Assembly (NCBI GenBank): GCA_016793845.1
Contig: JAEULI010000113.1
Location: 1-39,144 of the forward strand
DNA length: 39,144 nucleotides
Source: Sphingosinicella sp.
GTDB taxonomy: Bacteria > Pseudomonadota > Alphaproteobacteria > Sphingomonadales > Sphingomonadaceae
Reading direction: 5' to 3'
In this document: in pieces, positions 3,250-22,695 of the stretch
Layout of the letters: every line of letters begins with the position of its first letter
How positions within the stretch are numbered: the first letter of the stretch is position 1
The notes under the pieces: model-generated
What the model was told of the DNA's origin: nothing
What the model saw: only the letters and a program-made list of their open reading frames with translations
Databases searched by the model: none
Position numbers and translations under genes: made by a program

Positions 3250-3347
3250 GGGAGGGCCACTTAGGGGGCGCGGGCGCCTTCGGCAAGCGCAGGGCCGTGC
3301 CACTGTCGCCGTTTTTTACATACTTGTTGTACGCAAAATCGCTTAGC

Positions 3348-3360
3348 CATTTACGAAATG
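3348..3360. promoter_or_regulatory. 13-bp palindrome upstream of sigma-54 site
   Basis: CATTT-ACG-AAATG is a perfect inverted repeat centred about 53 bases before the sigma-54 -24 element. Enhancer-binding activators of sigma-54 polymerase bind dyads upstream of the promoter, so this is a candidate activator site. It could also be chance or belong to lepA control on the other strand. Confidence 0.3.
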
Positions 3361-3406
3361 AAAAAATGGGGCGCAAATCCGTGACTTGTTGGCGCAGGCG
3401 CCCACT

Positions 3407-3422
3407 TGGCACGGCTTATGCT
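3407..3422 (+). promoter_or_regulatory. Sigma-54 (RpoN) type promoter of the PEP-CTERM gene
   Basis: TGGCACG-GCTT-ATGCT matches the -24/-12 consensus TGGCACG-N4-TTGCW at 11 of 12 defined positions, with the invariant GG (3408-3409) and GC (3420-3421) correctly spaced. Transcription would begin near 3433, giving a leader of about 68 bases before the ATG at 3501. PEP-CTERM genes under RpoN and the PrsK/PrsR pair are known from other bacteria. Confidence 0.7.
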
Positions 3423-3500: not shown

Positions 3501-4400
3501 ATGCGTTACATGACCTCAATTCTGGCGGCCTGCGCCACGCTCGCGATTGCGGGCACCGCCCAGGCGACCACGCTCACCAACGGTAATGTCAGCATGGGCC
3601 TGTTCGACGACGGCGGCCTTGGCTCGGGCGGCGTTGGCCTCGCCCTCGCCGGCACCGGCGATGCGATCACGCCGGGCTGCCTTTGCGAAGGCTGGGGTGT
3701 CGCCGCCAACGGCGTCGGCAGCTATACCTATGGCGGCGGCAACACGTTTAACTCGGCCGTGCTTTCCGACGTGACCGCCTCGAGCGCCAAGTCGACGGTC
3801 ACGACCGGCGGTCTGAAGGTCGAGCACACCTATTCGCCGGTCTCCGGCGGCACGCTGTTCCGCATCGACATCAAGATCACCAACGACACCGGCGCGGACG
3901 CAACGGACATCCGTTATGCCCGTACGCTCGACTGGGACGTGCCCCCGGGCCACTTCTCGGACGACCGCACCTCGATCTACGGCGGCACGCCGTCGGGTCC
4001 GGGCGGCAAGGTTCTGCACACCTCGCTCGATCCGTTCGCGGTTCCGAACCCGATGGTGACGCGTAGCGCTTACGCAAACCAGAACGCCACGGACGTGGGC
4101 GGTGACCTCGGTGGTTACTTCATCTTCTCGTTCGGCGATCTCGCCATGGGCGAATCGGTGGAGTTCACGACCTACATCGGCGCTGCTGACTCGCTGCGCG
4201 CGCTGTTCGCCGCCTTCATCAGCGTCGGTGTCGAGGCCTACTCGTACACCCGCGACAACGATGGCGACTGGACGTTCGGCTACGGCTTCACCGGTCTCGA
4301 CCTGCCGCCGATCGGCGAAGTGCCGGAACCGGCTGCGCTGGCGCTGTTCGGTCTCGGTGTCCTCGGGCTGGGGGCAGCCCGCCGCCGCCGCAAGGCCTAA
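3501..4400 (+). CDS. PEP-CTERM sorting-domain surface protein
   Basis: A 299-residue exported protein. It has an N-terminal signal peptide (MRYMTSILAACATLAIAG, cleavage near AQA-TT) and a C-terminal PEP-CTERM signal at residues 274-299: VPEPAALALFGLGVLG, then a short hydrophobic tail and RRRRK. In known systems exosortase cleaves at this signal and delivers the protein to the cell surface or exopolysaccharide matrix. The mature part is Gly, Thr and Asp rich with no catalytic motif that I recognise, and resembles beta-rich extracellular proteins. ATG at 3501 follows a good ribosome site (AGAGGGGA). A sigma-54 type promoter lies upstream and a terminator downstream. No exosortase or EPS gene is in this window, so the sorting machinery must be elsewhere. 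Confidence 0.9.
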   Translation: MRYMTSILAACATLAIAGTAQATTLTNGNVSMGLFDDGGLGSGGVGLALAGTGDAITPGCLCEGWGVAANGVGSYTYGGGNTFNSAVLSDVTASSAKSTVTTGGLKVEHTYSPVSGGTLFRIDIKITNDTGADATDIRYARTLDWDVPPGHFSDDRTSIYGGTPSGPGGKVLHTSLDPFAVPNPMVTRSAYANQNATDVGGDLGGYFIFSFGDLAMGESVEFTTYIGAADSLRALFAAFISVGVEAYSYTRDNDGDWTFGYGFTGLDLPPIGEVPEPAALALFGLGVLGLGAARRRRKA

Positions 4401-20769: not shown

Positions 20770-21288
20770 ATGGCGGGCAGCGTCAACAAGGTCATTCTGA
20801 TCGGCAATCTCGGCGCAGACCCGGAAACGCGTACGATGGGCAGCGGCGGCAAGGTCGTGAACATGCGCATCGCCACCTCCGAAAACTGGACGGACAAGGC
20901 GAGCGGCGAGCGGCGCGAGAAGACCGAGTGGCACACTGTCGTGATCTTCAACGAGAACCTCGCGCGAGTCGCCGAGCAGTATCTGCGCAAGGGCAGCAAG
21001 GTCTATGTCGAAGGCCAACTCCAGACCCGCAAGTGGCAGGACCAGTCCGGACAGGACCGCTACACGACCGAGATCGTATTGCAGCGCTTCCGCGGTGAAC
21101 TGACGCTGCTCGACGGCCGCGGTGAAGGCGGCGGTGGCGGTGGCGGCGGCAACTATGGCGGCGGCGGATCCGGTGGTGGATCGGGCGGCGGCTTTGGTGG
21201 TGGAAGCGGCGGTGGTGGCGGCGGCGGATCGCGCCAGGGCAGCCGGCCGAGCTTCGACGACGATCTTGATGACGACGTGCCGTTCTGA
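20770..21288 (+). CDS. ssb: Single-stranded DNA-binding protein
   Basis: A 172-residue SSB that coats single-stranded DNA in replication and repair. The OB fold begins [18 protein letters not shown] and includes [13 protein letters not shown] and [18 protein letters not shown] long glycine-rich linker (about residues 118-155) leads to an acidic tip ending DDDVPF, the docking peptide for partner proteins. It is 25 bases after feoB but likely has its own promoter. Confidence 0.96.
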
Positions 21289-21319
21289 TCGCTTGGCTGT
21301 CGGCACCGTTTACAGTTTG

Positions 21320-21347
21320 AAGGGGCGTCCGTTCGGGCGCCCTTTTC
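21320..21347 (+). terminator. Intrinsic terminator of ssb
   Basis: Stem GGGCGTCC/GGGCGCCC (21323-21342) with loop GTTC, extended by flanking A-T pairs, followed by TTTTC. Confidence 0.8.
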
Positions 21348-21400
21348 ATTAACTATCCAAGGGGTTGGCGCCGTTTGATGAAAGGACGCACGATCCTCGC

Positions 21401-21416
21401 TGGCACGCGGCTTGCA
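21401..21416 (+). promoter_or_regulatory. Consensus sigma-54 (RpoN) promoter of a small RNA candidate
   Basis: TGGCACG-CGGC-TTGCA matches the -24/-12 consensus TGGCACG-N4-TTGCW at every defined position. Transcription is predicted to start near 21427. There is no coding gene on this strand before the next terminator about 95 bases on. Confidence 0.75.
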
Positions 21417-21426
21417 ATGAAAGCGT

Positions 21427-21521
21427 TGTGGGCAACGGCTCTCGCCCACAACAGAGTTCCCAGTCTCTGATCTCAAGCAAGGCCGGGGAGCCAAAACTTC
21501 CCGGCCTTGCACTCCTTTTTC
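21427..21521 (+). ncRNA. Candidate small RNA under sigma-54 control
   Basis: The predicted transcript of about 95 nt has three parts: a 5' hairpin with a nine-pair stem (GTTGTGGGC at 21426-21434 with GCCCACAAC at 21445-21453, loop of 10), a linker of about 24 nt (21454-21477) that can form a short AGAG/CTCT pair, and an 11-pair terminator hairpin with a T-tail. The promoter upstream is a perfect RpoN match. An ATG at 21417 opens a 17-codon frame, but it lies before the predicted start site. The unit lies between ssb and the convergent YceD gene. I do not recognise it as a known RNA family; targets and the activator are unknown. Confidence 0.6.
21478..21521 (+). terminator. Intrinsic terminator of the small RNA candidate
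   Basis: A perfect 11-bp stem, GCAAGGCCGGG (21478-21488) with CCCGGCCTTGC (21501-21511), loop of 12, followed by ACTCCTTTTT. The T-run is only on the plus-strand side, so it serves plus-strand transcription and not the convergent gene. Confidence 0.85.
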
Positions 21522-22047
21522 AGCTGCTGCGCTTCAGCGCCGCGAACGGGTTTGCCTGCGCCTTTTCCGCAGCCTCGCGCTCCGCCGCTTCCTCTTCGCT
21601 GAGCAGACGCCGTCGCGCGGCGGCAAGCACTTCGGCATCGGCGTGCGGGTATGGATCAAGCGCGAGACCGAAGGTCTGCGCCGCAACCTCGCCGAGGTCT
21701 ATGCTTCGCCCCTCGATGGGCAGCACGTCGCAGTCCCCTTCGTGAAGTTCGATCTCCTCGCCCTGCCCGAGGTCGTGGAGGAACAACAGCTCGACAGGCT
21801 CATCGATCCGCGCCGGGACATCCTCGCCCGAAGTGACGCAGGCCTGCACGGCATCGCCCTCGACCCGGCCCGTCACACGCACGCCGCCGGGGGCGGGCGC
21901 CGCGGTCAGCGCCGCTTCCAGCCGATCCAGCGCGCGAAGATCGAACCGCGCAGCGAGCGCCGCACGCTCTTCCACGTTCGCCGCAATCCGGCGTTCAACG
22001 CCCGCGCCGACCTCGTCGAGAGTGAGCAGCCTCACGAATTCGCTCAT
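21520..22047 (-). CDS. YceD/DUF177 family protein
   Basis: A 175-residue protein of the YceD (DUF177) family. Members are often next to rpmF and, in plants and bacteria, have been linked to 23S rRNA accumulation; rpmF is not in this window. The family core ARIDEPVELLF, the acidic stretch, then IDLGEVAAQTFGLALDPYP is clear. ATG at 22047 overlaps the stop of the upstream gene as ATGA, so the two are coupled. The C-terminus has a charged helix and ends NPFAALKRSS, typical of alphaproteobacterial members. Confidence 0.87.
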   Translation of the reverse strand: MSEFVRLLTLDEVGAGVERRIAANVEERAALAARFDLRALDRLEAALTAAPAPGGVRVTGRVEGDAVQACVTSGEDVPARIDEPVELLFLHDLGQGEEIELHEGDCDVLPIEGRSIDLGEVAAQTFGLALDPYPHADAEVLAAARRRLLSEEEAAEREAAEKAQANPFAALKRSS

Positions 22048-22559
22048 CCCAGAATCTCCGAAAGCGGCCGCGCGGTGCAGCGTGCCCATTCCTCGCGCAC
22101 GCGCGCACCCAGCCAGTCCGGCGCGGCATCCTCGCCGCGCAGCACGTTGCGGGCGAGCGCTGCGCTCAGCAAGGCGGGATCAGCATCGGCAGCGAGCGCC
22201 TCGCGATAGCTGCCGAGCCGGCCGCCGAGCGCCTGCATGGCGTGGCCCATGTGCTTGCCGATCACCATGTCGCCGATGCCGATCTCGCGGAAGCTGCCGT
22301 CCATGTCCGCCGCGAAACGCTCGACGAGCAGGCTTGAGAGCGCCCGCGCGCGCGCATCGTCCGCATCGCGTTCGAGCCGCACGAGCAGCAGCGACAGCGC
22401 CAGCACGACCATGTCGAAACGGCCATCGATGCTGTCGGGCACGCCGCCCTCGACGTACCAGCCCGGCCGGCGCGCCACCGCGACGATCTCGTCATAGAGT
22501 TCCGCCGCGCGCACCTCTCCATCGGTCCCGGCATTTCGCCTTTGCAGCCATTTCAACAT
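22044..22559 (-). CDS. Ubiquinol-cytochrome c chaperone family protein
   Basis: A 171-residue protein of the CBP3/UQCC1-like chaperone family, which in mitochondria helps cytochrome b and complex III assembly. Typical stretches are LYDEIVAVARRPGWYVEGGVPDSIDGRFDM (positions about 21-50), FAADMDGSFREIGIGDMVIGKHM and the C-terminal LARNVLRGE. The role in bacteria is inferred from the family. It is coupled to the YceD gene by an ATGA overlap, a pairing common in alphaproteobacteria. Confidence 0.9.
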   Translation of the reverse strand: MLKWLQRRNAGTDGEVRAAELYDEIVAVARRPGWYVEGGVPDSIDGRFDMVVLALSLLLVRLERDADDARARALSSLLVERFAADMDGSFREIGIGDMVIGKHMGHAMQALGGRLGSYREALAADADPALLSAALARNVLRGEDAAPDWLGARVREEWARCTARPLSEILG

Positions 22560-22695
22560 GGTTCAGTCTCGTTTCATCCCGTATGCGCTAGCGAAAGAGG
22601 CGCGGCTCCAGCTTGCGGGGCCGCAGCAACATGCATATTGAGTGGCGAGGCCGCGAGGTCAATGCGCGAGGCCTCTGCCAAGGTCAGGAGTGTTC

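Follow-up and report, generated by a model that had tools for sequence, protein, structure and literature searches.

A probable PrsR/RpoN-driven, trans-acting small RNA gene of the PEP-CTERM/exosortase regulon in Sphingosinicella

What does a full-consensus sigma-54 promoter control when no gene stands behind it on its own strand? The question is raised by a locus between ssb and yceD in a Sphingosinicella sp. genome, on a stretch of 39,144 nucleotides that was analysed as a whole and is called the window below. An earlier note, made from the letters alone, had proposed an undescribed sigma-54-dependent small RNA at this place. The locus is organised as follows.

20770-21288, plus strand: ssb, the gene upstream of the RNA (TIGR00621, 159.2 bits)
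21298-21314, plus strand: predicted PrsR 'motif 1' enhancer TGTCGGCACCGTTTACA, 17 nt, 86 nt upstream of the -24 element
about 21320-21352: terminator-like hairpin belonging to ssb, read from the sequence
21357-21368: dyad CCAAGGGGTTGG between the ssb terminator and the promoter, nearly invariant in the five-genome alignment, by reading
21401-21416, plus strand: sigma-54 -24/-12 promoter TGGCACGCGGCTTGCA, zero mismatch to TGGCACGN4TTGCW
21427-21521, plus strand: predicted small RNA of about 93-95 nt, its start taken from the -12 rule and its end within the T run
21425-21452, plus strand: 5' stem-loop of the RNA, conserved core 21427-21450, with the 10-nt loop AACGGCUCUC at 21434-21443
21452-21469, plus strand: second small hairpin, CAGAG/CTCTG, inside the linker
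21470-21475, plus strand: AUCUCA, unpaired, separating hairpin 2 from the terminator, invariant in 5 sequences
21477-21521, plus strand: intrinsic terminator, a 14-bp stem at 21477-21510 and a T-rich tail ending in TTTTT
21520-22089, minus strand: yceD (DUF177), convergent, its stop codon overlapping the T run of the RNA (PF02620, 49.8 bits)

Taking the statement as a whole, we consider it probable that 21298-21521 is the gene of a trans-acting small RNA, driven by PrsR and RpoN and belonging to the PEP-CTERM/exosortase regulon; the promoter and regulon assignment is firmer than the trans-acting mode.

The sequence at 21401-21416 is the sole zero-mismatch match to TGGCACGN4TTGCW in the window and none of 100 shuffles contained one, which upholds the full-consensus RpoN promoter first described. 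Twelve of its 16 positions are invariant in five genomes of the genus, the variants including CGGCAC in S. soli and TGGCACAG in MCMED-G19. With mismatches allowed the motif is not enriched: at two or fewer there was no excess over chance in the window (8 vs 6.97), and at one or fewer the whole genome gave 37 matches vs 47 for the reversed pattern. On its own the -24/-12 promoter is therefore weak evidence, and the context must decide. As the earlier note had also seen, no same-strand gene uses the promoter: the genes recognised between the RNA and a BamE-domain gene at 22642 are yceD and a ubiquinol-cytochrome c chaperone, both on the opposite strand, so that no sense gene was recognised before 22642 and no PEP-CTERM gene is driven. 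The dyad CCAAGGGGTTGG, lying between enhancer and promoter, might be a DNA-bending site or the site of a second regulator.

The segment behind the promoter folds at -48.8 kcal/mol (z -6.53), and none of 200 shuffles folded equally well. The -12 rule, as we apply it, places +1 at 21427, exactly where the stem of 7 pairs shared by the relatives begins (21427-21433/21444-21450), in agreement with the earlier description of a hairpin starting at about the predicted first base. The nine pairs then described are present in the window (21425-21433/21444-21452), and it is the inner seven that the relatives share. The 24-nt linker proved not to be unstructured, for it contains the invariant 5-bp hairpin CAGAG/CTCTG. 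As to the strong terminator with T-tail, the terminator-like hairpin 21477-21510 and its T-rich tail were also detected by a separate terminator scan, but the T run begins 6 nt beyond the stem. In the alignment of 5 RNAs, two of which are 96% alike across the element, 68 of 93 positions are invariant; so are all ten positions of the loop AACGGCUCUC and 5/7 and 4/7 positions of the 5' stem arms, and the loop is likely the seed. Bases pair in 96.3% of cells of this alignment, compared with at most 45.5% for slid partners. Three pairs show a double change, a number that 17 of 500 shuffles reach; the 5' stem has one such pair, in the terminator stem GGCC/GGCC becomes GACC/GGTC, and the hairpin CAGAG/CTCTG, in which 5/5 pairs form in 5/5 sequences and none varies, contributes no covariation. 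Covariation support for the structure is thin and the shuffle control modest. A coding sequence was discarded: the second loop differs in length by 1 nt and the terminator loop by 1-3 nt, which breaks any reading frame. The element is a predicted free-standing RNA with a conserved structure, an intrinsic terminator and no conserved ORF, and its RpoN-dependent expression is predicted from the promoter.

Among 59 relatives searched at the nucleotide level, the RNA was present in the window's genome and in 4 of the 5 other Sphingosinicella genomes, and its position beside yceD is retained in all 5 carriers. The fifth other genome of the genus (G005; 78% complete, 680 contigs) showed neither yceD nor the RNA; it is uninformative on RNA presence, because yceD is also missing and the genome is incomplete. 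An exact gapped pattern run over 84,980 species genomes, a set that may lack the record of the window or one close to it, named as carriers S. soli DSM 17328, the MAG MCMED-G19 and S. microcystinivorans DSM 19791, the last a microcystin degrader. A covariance model built from the same 5 genus genomes and run with strict filters, 10 candidates being scored per genome, matched 71 of 397 family genomes at E <= 1: strongly (E <= 6.5e-20) in the 5 genus genomes only, and weakly in 66. The 25 loci read from the weak genomes (L041-L065) resemble bare terminators, and the 22 of them that the regex covered (all but L045, L053 and L056, near contig ends) have no -24/-12 element upstream. Beside yceD in 25 loci from outside the genus (L074-L098) there is no sigma-54 site within 330 nt, the lone GGCAACGGC in L084 falling within the ssb frame, and viral contigs gave 0 matches to the gapped core pattern. 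Homologs across Sphingomonadales, as once expected, were thus not seen: the covariance model, the pattern scan and the yceD loci all place the RNA in one genus, where the homologous regions keep both the -24/-12 element and the hairpins, as the earlier proposal implied. None of 4227 Rfam families reaches its gathering threshold in the window, and the sub-threshold matches are far below. The idea of an undescribed sigma-54 small RNA is accordingly supported by the promoter, by the structure, by some covariation in 5 genomes and by the lack of an Rfam family above threshold. The segment 21427-21521 is a predicted RNA gene conserved within a single genus, Sphingosinicella.

Its closeness to yceD suggests another mode of action for the same PrsR-driven RNA, which would act in cis or as an antisense RNA: by overlapping the 3' end of the yceD mRNA it would reduce YceD while the matrix regulon is active. 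Two facts fit such a role: the terminator borders directly on the stop codon of yceD (21520), and the yceD neighbourhood is kept in 5 genomes. Against it, the invariant 10-nt loop is unneeded for an antisense function and the module-linked hairpins of other genera, described below, adjoin other genes. We regard this mode as unlikely and favour an RNA that acts in trans.

It is highly improbable that the hairpins are mere terminators of ssb and yceD, with a fortuitous -24/-12 match and no dedicated RNA. Read on the minus strand (21453-21424), the first hairpin has CTTTC behind it and is scored as a yceD terminator, and the genome-wide counts of sigma-54-like matches at one mismatch or fewer given above would fit a fortuitous site. 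Against this, the minus-strand T run is missing in 3/5 genomes, as read from the alignment, ssb is already provided with a terminator-like hairpin further upstream, and enhancer and promoter are conserved jointly, as a pair that neither shuffles nor reversed-pattern controls contain. The preferred reading of a dedicated, PrsR-driven RNA gene leads to the DNA upstream of the promoter.

The main clue lies there and had been overlooked: the RNA was said to bear no signature of a known regulator, and PrsR motif 1, TGTCGGCACCGTTTACA, is found 86 nt upstream of its promoter. Haft et al. 2006 (PMC1569441) described motif 1 as a 17-nt element ending in TTTACA, followed, after a spacer of 62.8 +/- 10.6 nt (32-92), by the sigma-54 motif 2; they named PrsR as the predicted activator of the PEP-CTERM (exosortase-sorted) protein module; a few extra sites precede 'other genes', and an RNA is unmentioned in the excerpts of that paper on which we draw. 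At the RNA locus a spacer of 86 nt, within 32-92 nt, leads to the -24(GG)/-12(GC) elements. Within the window TGTCGGN5TTTACA is matched exactly at 21298-21314 alone; the pair of motif 1 and sigma-54 site is likewise unique there, and occurred in 0 of 100 shuffles. In the 5 genomes 12 of the 17 positions of motif 1 are invariant, compared with 21 of the 47 spacer positions at 21353-21399. A reading of the DNA ahead of 18 sigma-54 sites from the window's genome showed that TGTCG...TTTACA precedes most PEP-CTERM promoters as well as the RNA promoter; among the 8 PEP-CTERM promoters read, one is without motif 1 (L025), one has a variant (L006) and at one the sequence ends early (L015). The window itself holds a second module for comparison.

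3304-3422, plus strand: comparison module, with motif 1 at 3304-3320, an 86-nt gap and the sigma-54 site at 3407-3422
3501-4400, plus strand: PEP-CTERM protein gene behind this module (TIGR02595, 23.9 bits against a cut-off of 16; PF07589, 28.7 bits)

This module has one mismatch in each half, and its gap is the same 86 nt as at the RNA locus. Module patterns were then written for searches of whole genomes, after sites had been seen, with a gap range chosen to take in the 86 nt of the RNA and with a motif 1 consensus derived from the sites found here, not from Haft's logo. In six genomes of the genus TTACA-N56-86-YGGCAYN5TTGCW gave 31 matches vs 0 for the reversed pattern, a control that is not composition-matched, and a stricter pattern gave 17 vs 0. 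The 31 matches lie upstream of PEP-CTERM genes (20), of a secreted protein of about 99 aa (5) and of the RNA (5); one is probably due to chance (L108, which has no TGTCG and no gene for a PEP-CTERM or 99-aa protein). Across the family, GTCGN6TTTACA-N57-87-TGGCAYN5TTGCW matched 52 of 397 genomes; none of the matches listed was to the reversed pattern. Its gap was set at 57-87 nt, as a range of 54-84 nt would miss the 86 nt of the RNA. At 96 sites from outside the genus two positions left free in the pattern agree with the window, T being first in 85/96 and G sixth in 82/96. The enhancer-promoter gaps of 98 family modules (68 at 61-66 nt, 25 at 72-76, 4 at 84-87 and 1 at 54) step by about one helical turn, and the 86 nt of the RNA fall within the 84-87 class, hence in a minority, as 93 of the 98 gaps measure 61-76 nt. 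The stress or nutrient signal suggested before is thus not supported; the enhancer that the RNA promoter bears is the one predicted for PrsR in the PEP-CTERM/exosortase regulon, and the locus is classed as a non-protein member of the PrsR/PEP-CTERM regulon, not as a PEP-CTERM gene.

A conserved secreted protein of about 99 aa without PEP-CTERM also stands under a PrsR module (L031, L129, L131, L133 and L138), and its copy in L031 adjoins a PEP-CTERM gene.

The regulators are encoded in the window's genome in one cassette, with the genes for PrsK (TIGR02916, 625.8 bits, cut-off 300), PrsR (TIGR02915, 704.3 bits, cut-off 502.6) and PrsT (TIGR02917, 558.7 bits, cut-off 312.2) in a row behind an EPS sugar transferase gene (L180). 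PrsR comprises a receiver, a sigma-54 activation domain and a Fis-type HTH, and the GAFTGA motif was recognised by eye. It scored above cut-off in 5/5 genomes carrying the RNA; the incomplete G005 has no PrsR above cut-off, yet two module matches. RpoN (TIGR02395) was above cut-off in 11/11 genomes tested. What the regulon requires of a genome, namely PrsR, PrsK, PrsT, RpoN and PEP-CTERM proteins, is all encoded. Another activator of flagellar FlbD, PspF or NtrC type, which would assign the RNA to a motility, membrane-stress or nitrogen response, is very unlikely: the PrsR model matches 17 places of this genome at E <= 0.001, so that many related activators are encoded, and perfect sigma-54 sites occur in a flagellar-reading cluster and upstream of a pspA-like gene, but motif 1 is present at the RNA promoter and was not seen by eye at the 6 flagellar promoters and the pspA promoter read (genes named by reading). 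The flagellar regulon as such, considered on account of the several perfect sites in that cluster (C78), was dropped on the same comparison, motif 1 being found at PEP-CTERM promoters and at the RNA. The sigma-54 site upstream of the pspA-like gene (L016, about 1488-1507; gene named by reading) is one half of a perfect inverted repeat, CGTGCCAGAAAACTGGCACG.

From the promoter, the enhancer motif, the conserved RNA structure, the regulon context and the PrsK, PrsR, PrsT and RpoN genes, all visible in the sequence, we infer as follows how PrsR would bind, how the RNA would be transcribed and base-pair, and what its targets would be. The kinase PrsK would activate the response regulator PrsR, which is predicted to bind motif 1 (21298-21314) and would, by looping the DNA, open sigma-54 RNA polymerase at 21401-21416. 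The product would be an RNA of three stem-loops, about 93 nt long, that stops at the terminator 21477-21521. Its loop AACGGCUCUC and the unpaired AUCUCA could then pair with purine-rich ribosome-binding sites of other mRNAs and silence them, probably those of envelope or lifestyle genes, during construction of the surface matrix. Invariant loops, a pyrimidine-rich 3' half of the loop and a terminator tail are the typical look of base-pairing bacterial sRNAs. Searched in 5 genomes, GAGAGCCG-N1-16-ATG gave 137 matches, nested and duplicate ones included and two of them arising from the RNA gene, read as its complement (G001 and G003), vs 75 for the reversed pattern, a control not matched in composition. 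Among 50 target loci read, some of them overlapping, one plausible gene start recurs, that of an apparent lipoprotein, in 3/5 genomes; its duplex energy is ordinary, 0.16-0.33 of 500 shuffles being as good. Target prediction from the 5' loop, as advised in the earlier note, thus yielded one candidate with a duplex energy not above that of shuffled sequences, and the seed-match trial in the 5 genomes no convincing target. The lipoprotein start site GAGAGCCGTGATG (L261, L265 and L267) is complementary to the RNA loop and constitutes a weak target lead.

Modules of the same kind were also read in other genera. Out of 104 distinct modules, a few of them from Sphingosinicella, a loose regex put 80 before PEP-CTERM-like frames, a few of these flags being false (e.g. 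L151). The remaining 24, sorted by eye, precede small proteins of about 35-66 aa (10), secreted or cut PEP-CTERM genes (6), the 99-aa protein (2) or a hairpin without a sense gene (5), with one unclear case (L147). The last five belong to four other genera, and their promoters, with the orientation read, are the following.

L157, promoter at 1591: termination signal T7
L184, promoter at 1582: short T run
L195, promoter at 1593: short T run
L218, promoter at 226: short T run
L239, promoter at 247: no termination signal

All five face a convergent gene, judging by the codon GC pattern. L195 and L218 are homologous (78%; 2/6 genomes of that genus), and L184 and L239 adjoin the same glutaredoxin gene (Pfam Glutaredoxin for that of L239). 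None of the five aligns convincingly with the window's RNA. They may be candidates for further small RNAs, which suggests that such RNAs recur. A wider, tentative reading is that a non-coding arm recurs in the PrsR regulon of Sphingomonadaceae: lineages would repeatedly have put different small RNAs under the exosortase/matrix switch (beside yceD in Sphingosinicella, beside the glutaredoxin gene in two genera, as a conserved pair in a third and as a single case in a fourth), so that matrix building would routinely be coupled to RNA-based silencing of other genes. We hold this possible but less likely than not, because the PrsR search, which among the genomes of the five hairpin loci covered G022, the source of L157, gave there a best score of 348.8 bits, below the cut-off.

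PrsR modules also stand before small proteins, about 35-66 aa long, that have a single hydrophobic stretch (L151, L152, L175, L208, L223, L227, L229, L232, L233, L235 and L237), several of them beside what is apparently the same convergent gene; this could possibly be a small membrane protein of the PrsR regulon.

The PEP-CTERM surface-matrix programme thus probably also has an RNA regulator. PEP-CTERM/exosortase systems are present in many environmental bacteria, and links to the formation of exopolysaccharide, flocs and biofilms have been reported (PMC1569441, PMC9850573, PMC3333781). A small RNA under the exosortase switch would add a post-transcriptional output to the regulon and reveal what matrix-building cells turn off, and it is open to testing in S. 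microcystinivorans, a culturable carrier. Experimental work on such regulons includes one PEP-CTERM gene that is RpoN-dependent (PMC9850573) and five predicted PEP-CTERM targets enriched with the Desulfovibrio regulator DVUA0057 (PMC3333781); in the portions of the literature consulted, the published binding data that we found concern this Desulfovibrio regulator, not PrsR. PEP-CTERM and RNA are both present, and not connected, in the passages of PMC8092127 and PMC9260433 considered here. In a literature with subscription papers mostly outside its scope, and represented by partial texts, no report of an RNA in the PrsR/PEP-CTERM regulon was found. Sigma-54 RNAs and the PrsR module are already known; what appears new, going by the sequence, is the predicted wiring of an Rfam-absent RNA to the exosortase matrix switch.

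GlmY and CrcZ are free-standing RNAs with a sigma-54 promoter and a terminator, features that they share with the window's RNA; unlike them, the latter has no Rfam match, no A-rich sponge repeats by eye and a different activator site. A closer parallel in wiring is offered by Vibrio fischeri, in which SypG, the activator of the syp locus needed for cell aggregates, also drives the sigma-54 RNA Qrr1 (PMC10162802). Like the RNA described here, Qrr1 is a sigma-54 small RNA under an enhancer-binding response regulator that also controls another locus, syp; in contrast, Qrr1 is a quorum-sensing RNA driven by LuxO too (PMC10162802), and with no Rfam match in the window there is no sign of homology. 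Dv_sRNA2 of Desulfovibrio is likewise a small RNA targeted by a two-component response regulator, DVU0679, which differs from the PEP-CTERM-binding DVUA0057, for which no RNA is given as a target in the excerpts of that study considered here (PMC3333781). The nearest known system remains the PEP-CTERM PrsK-PrsR-sigma-54 regulon as described in the portions of PMC1569441 used here, with which the window and its genome share the 17-nt motif 1, a spacer, here of 86 nt, the sigma-54 site and the PrsK, PrsR, PrsT and PEP-CTERM genes; unlike its described members, the gene downstream is a structured RNA and not a PEP-CTERM protein.
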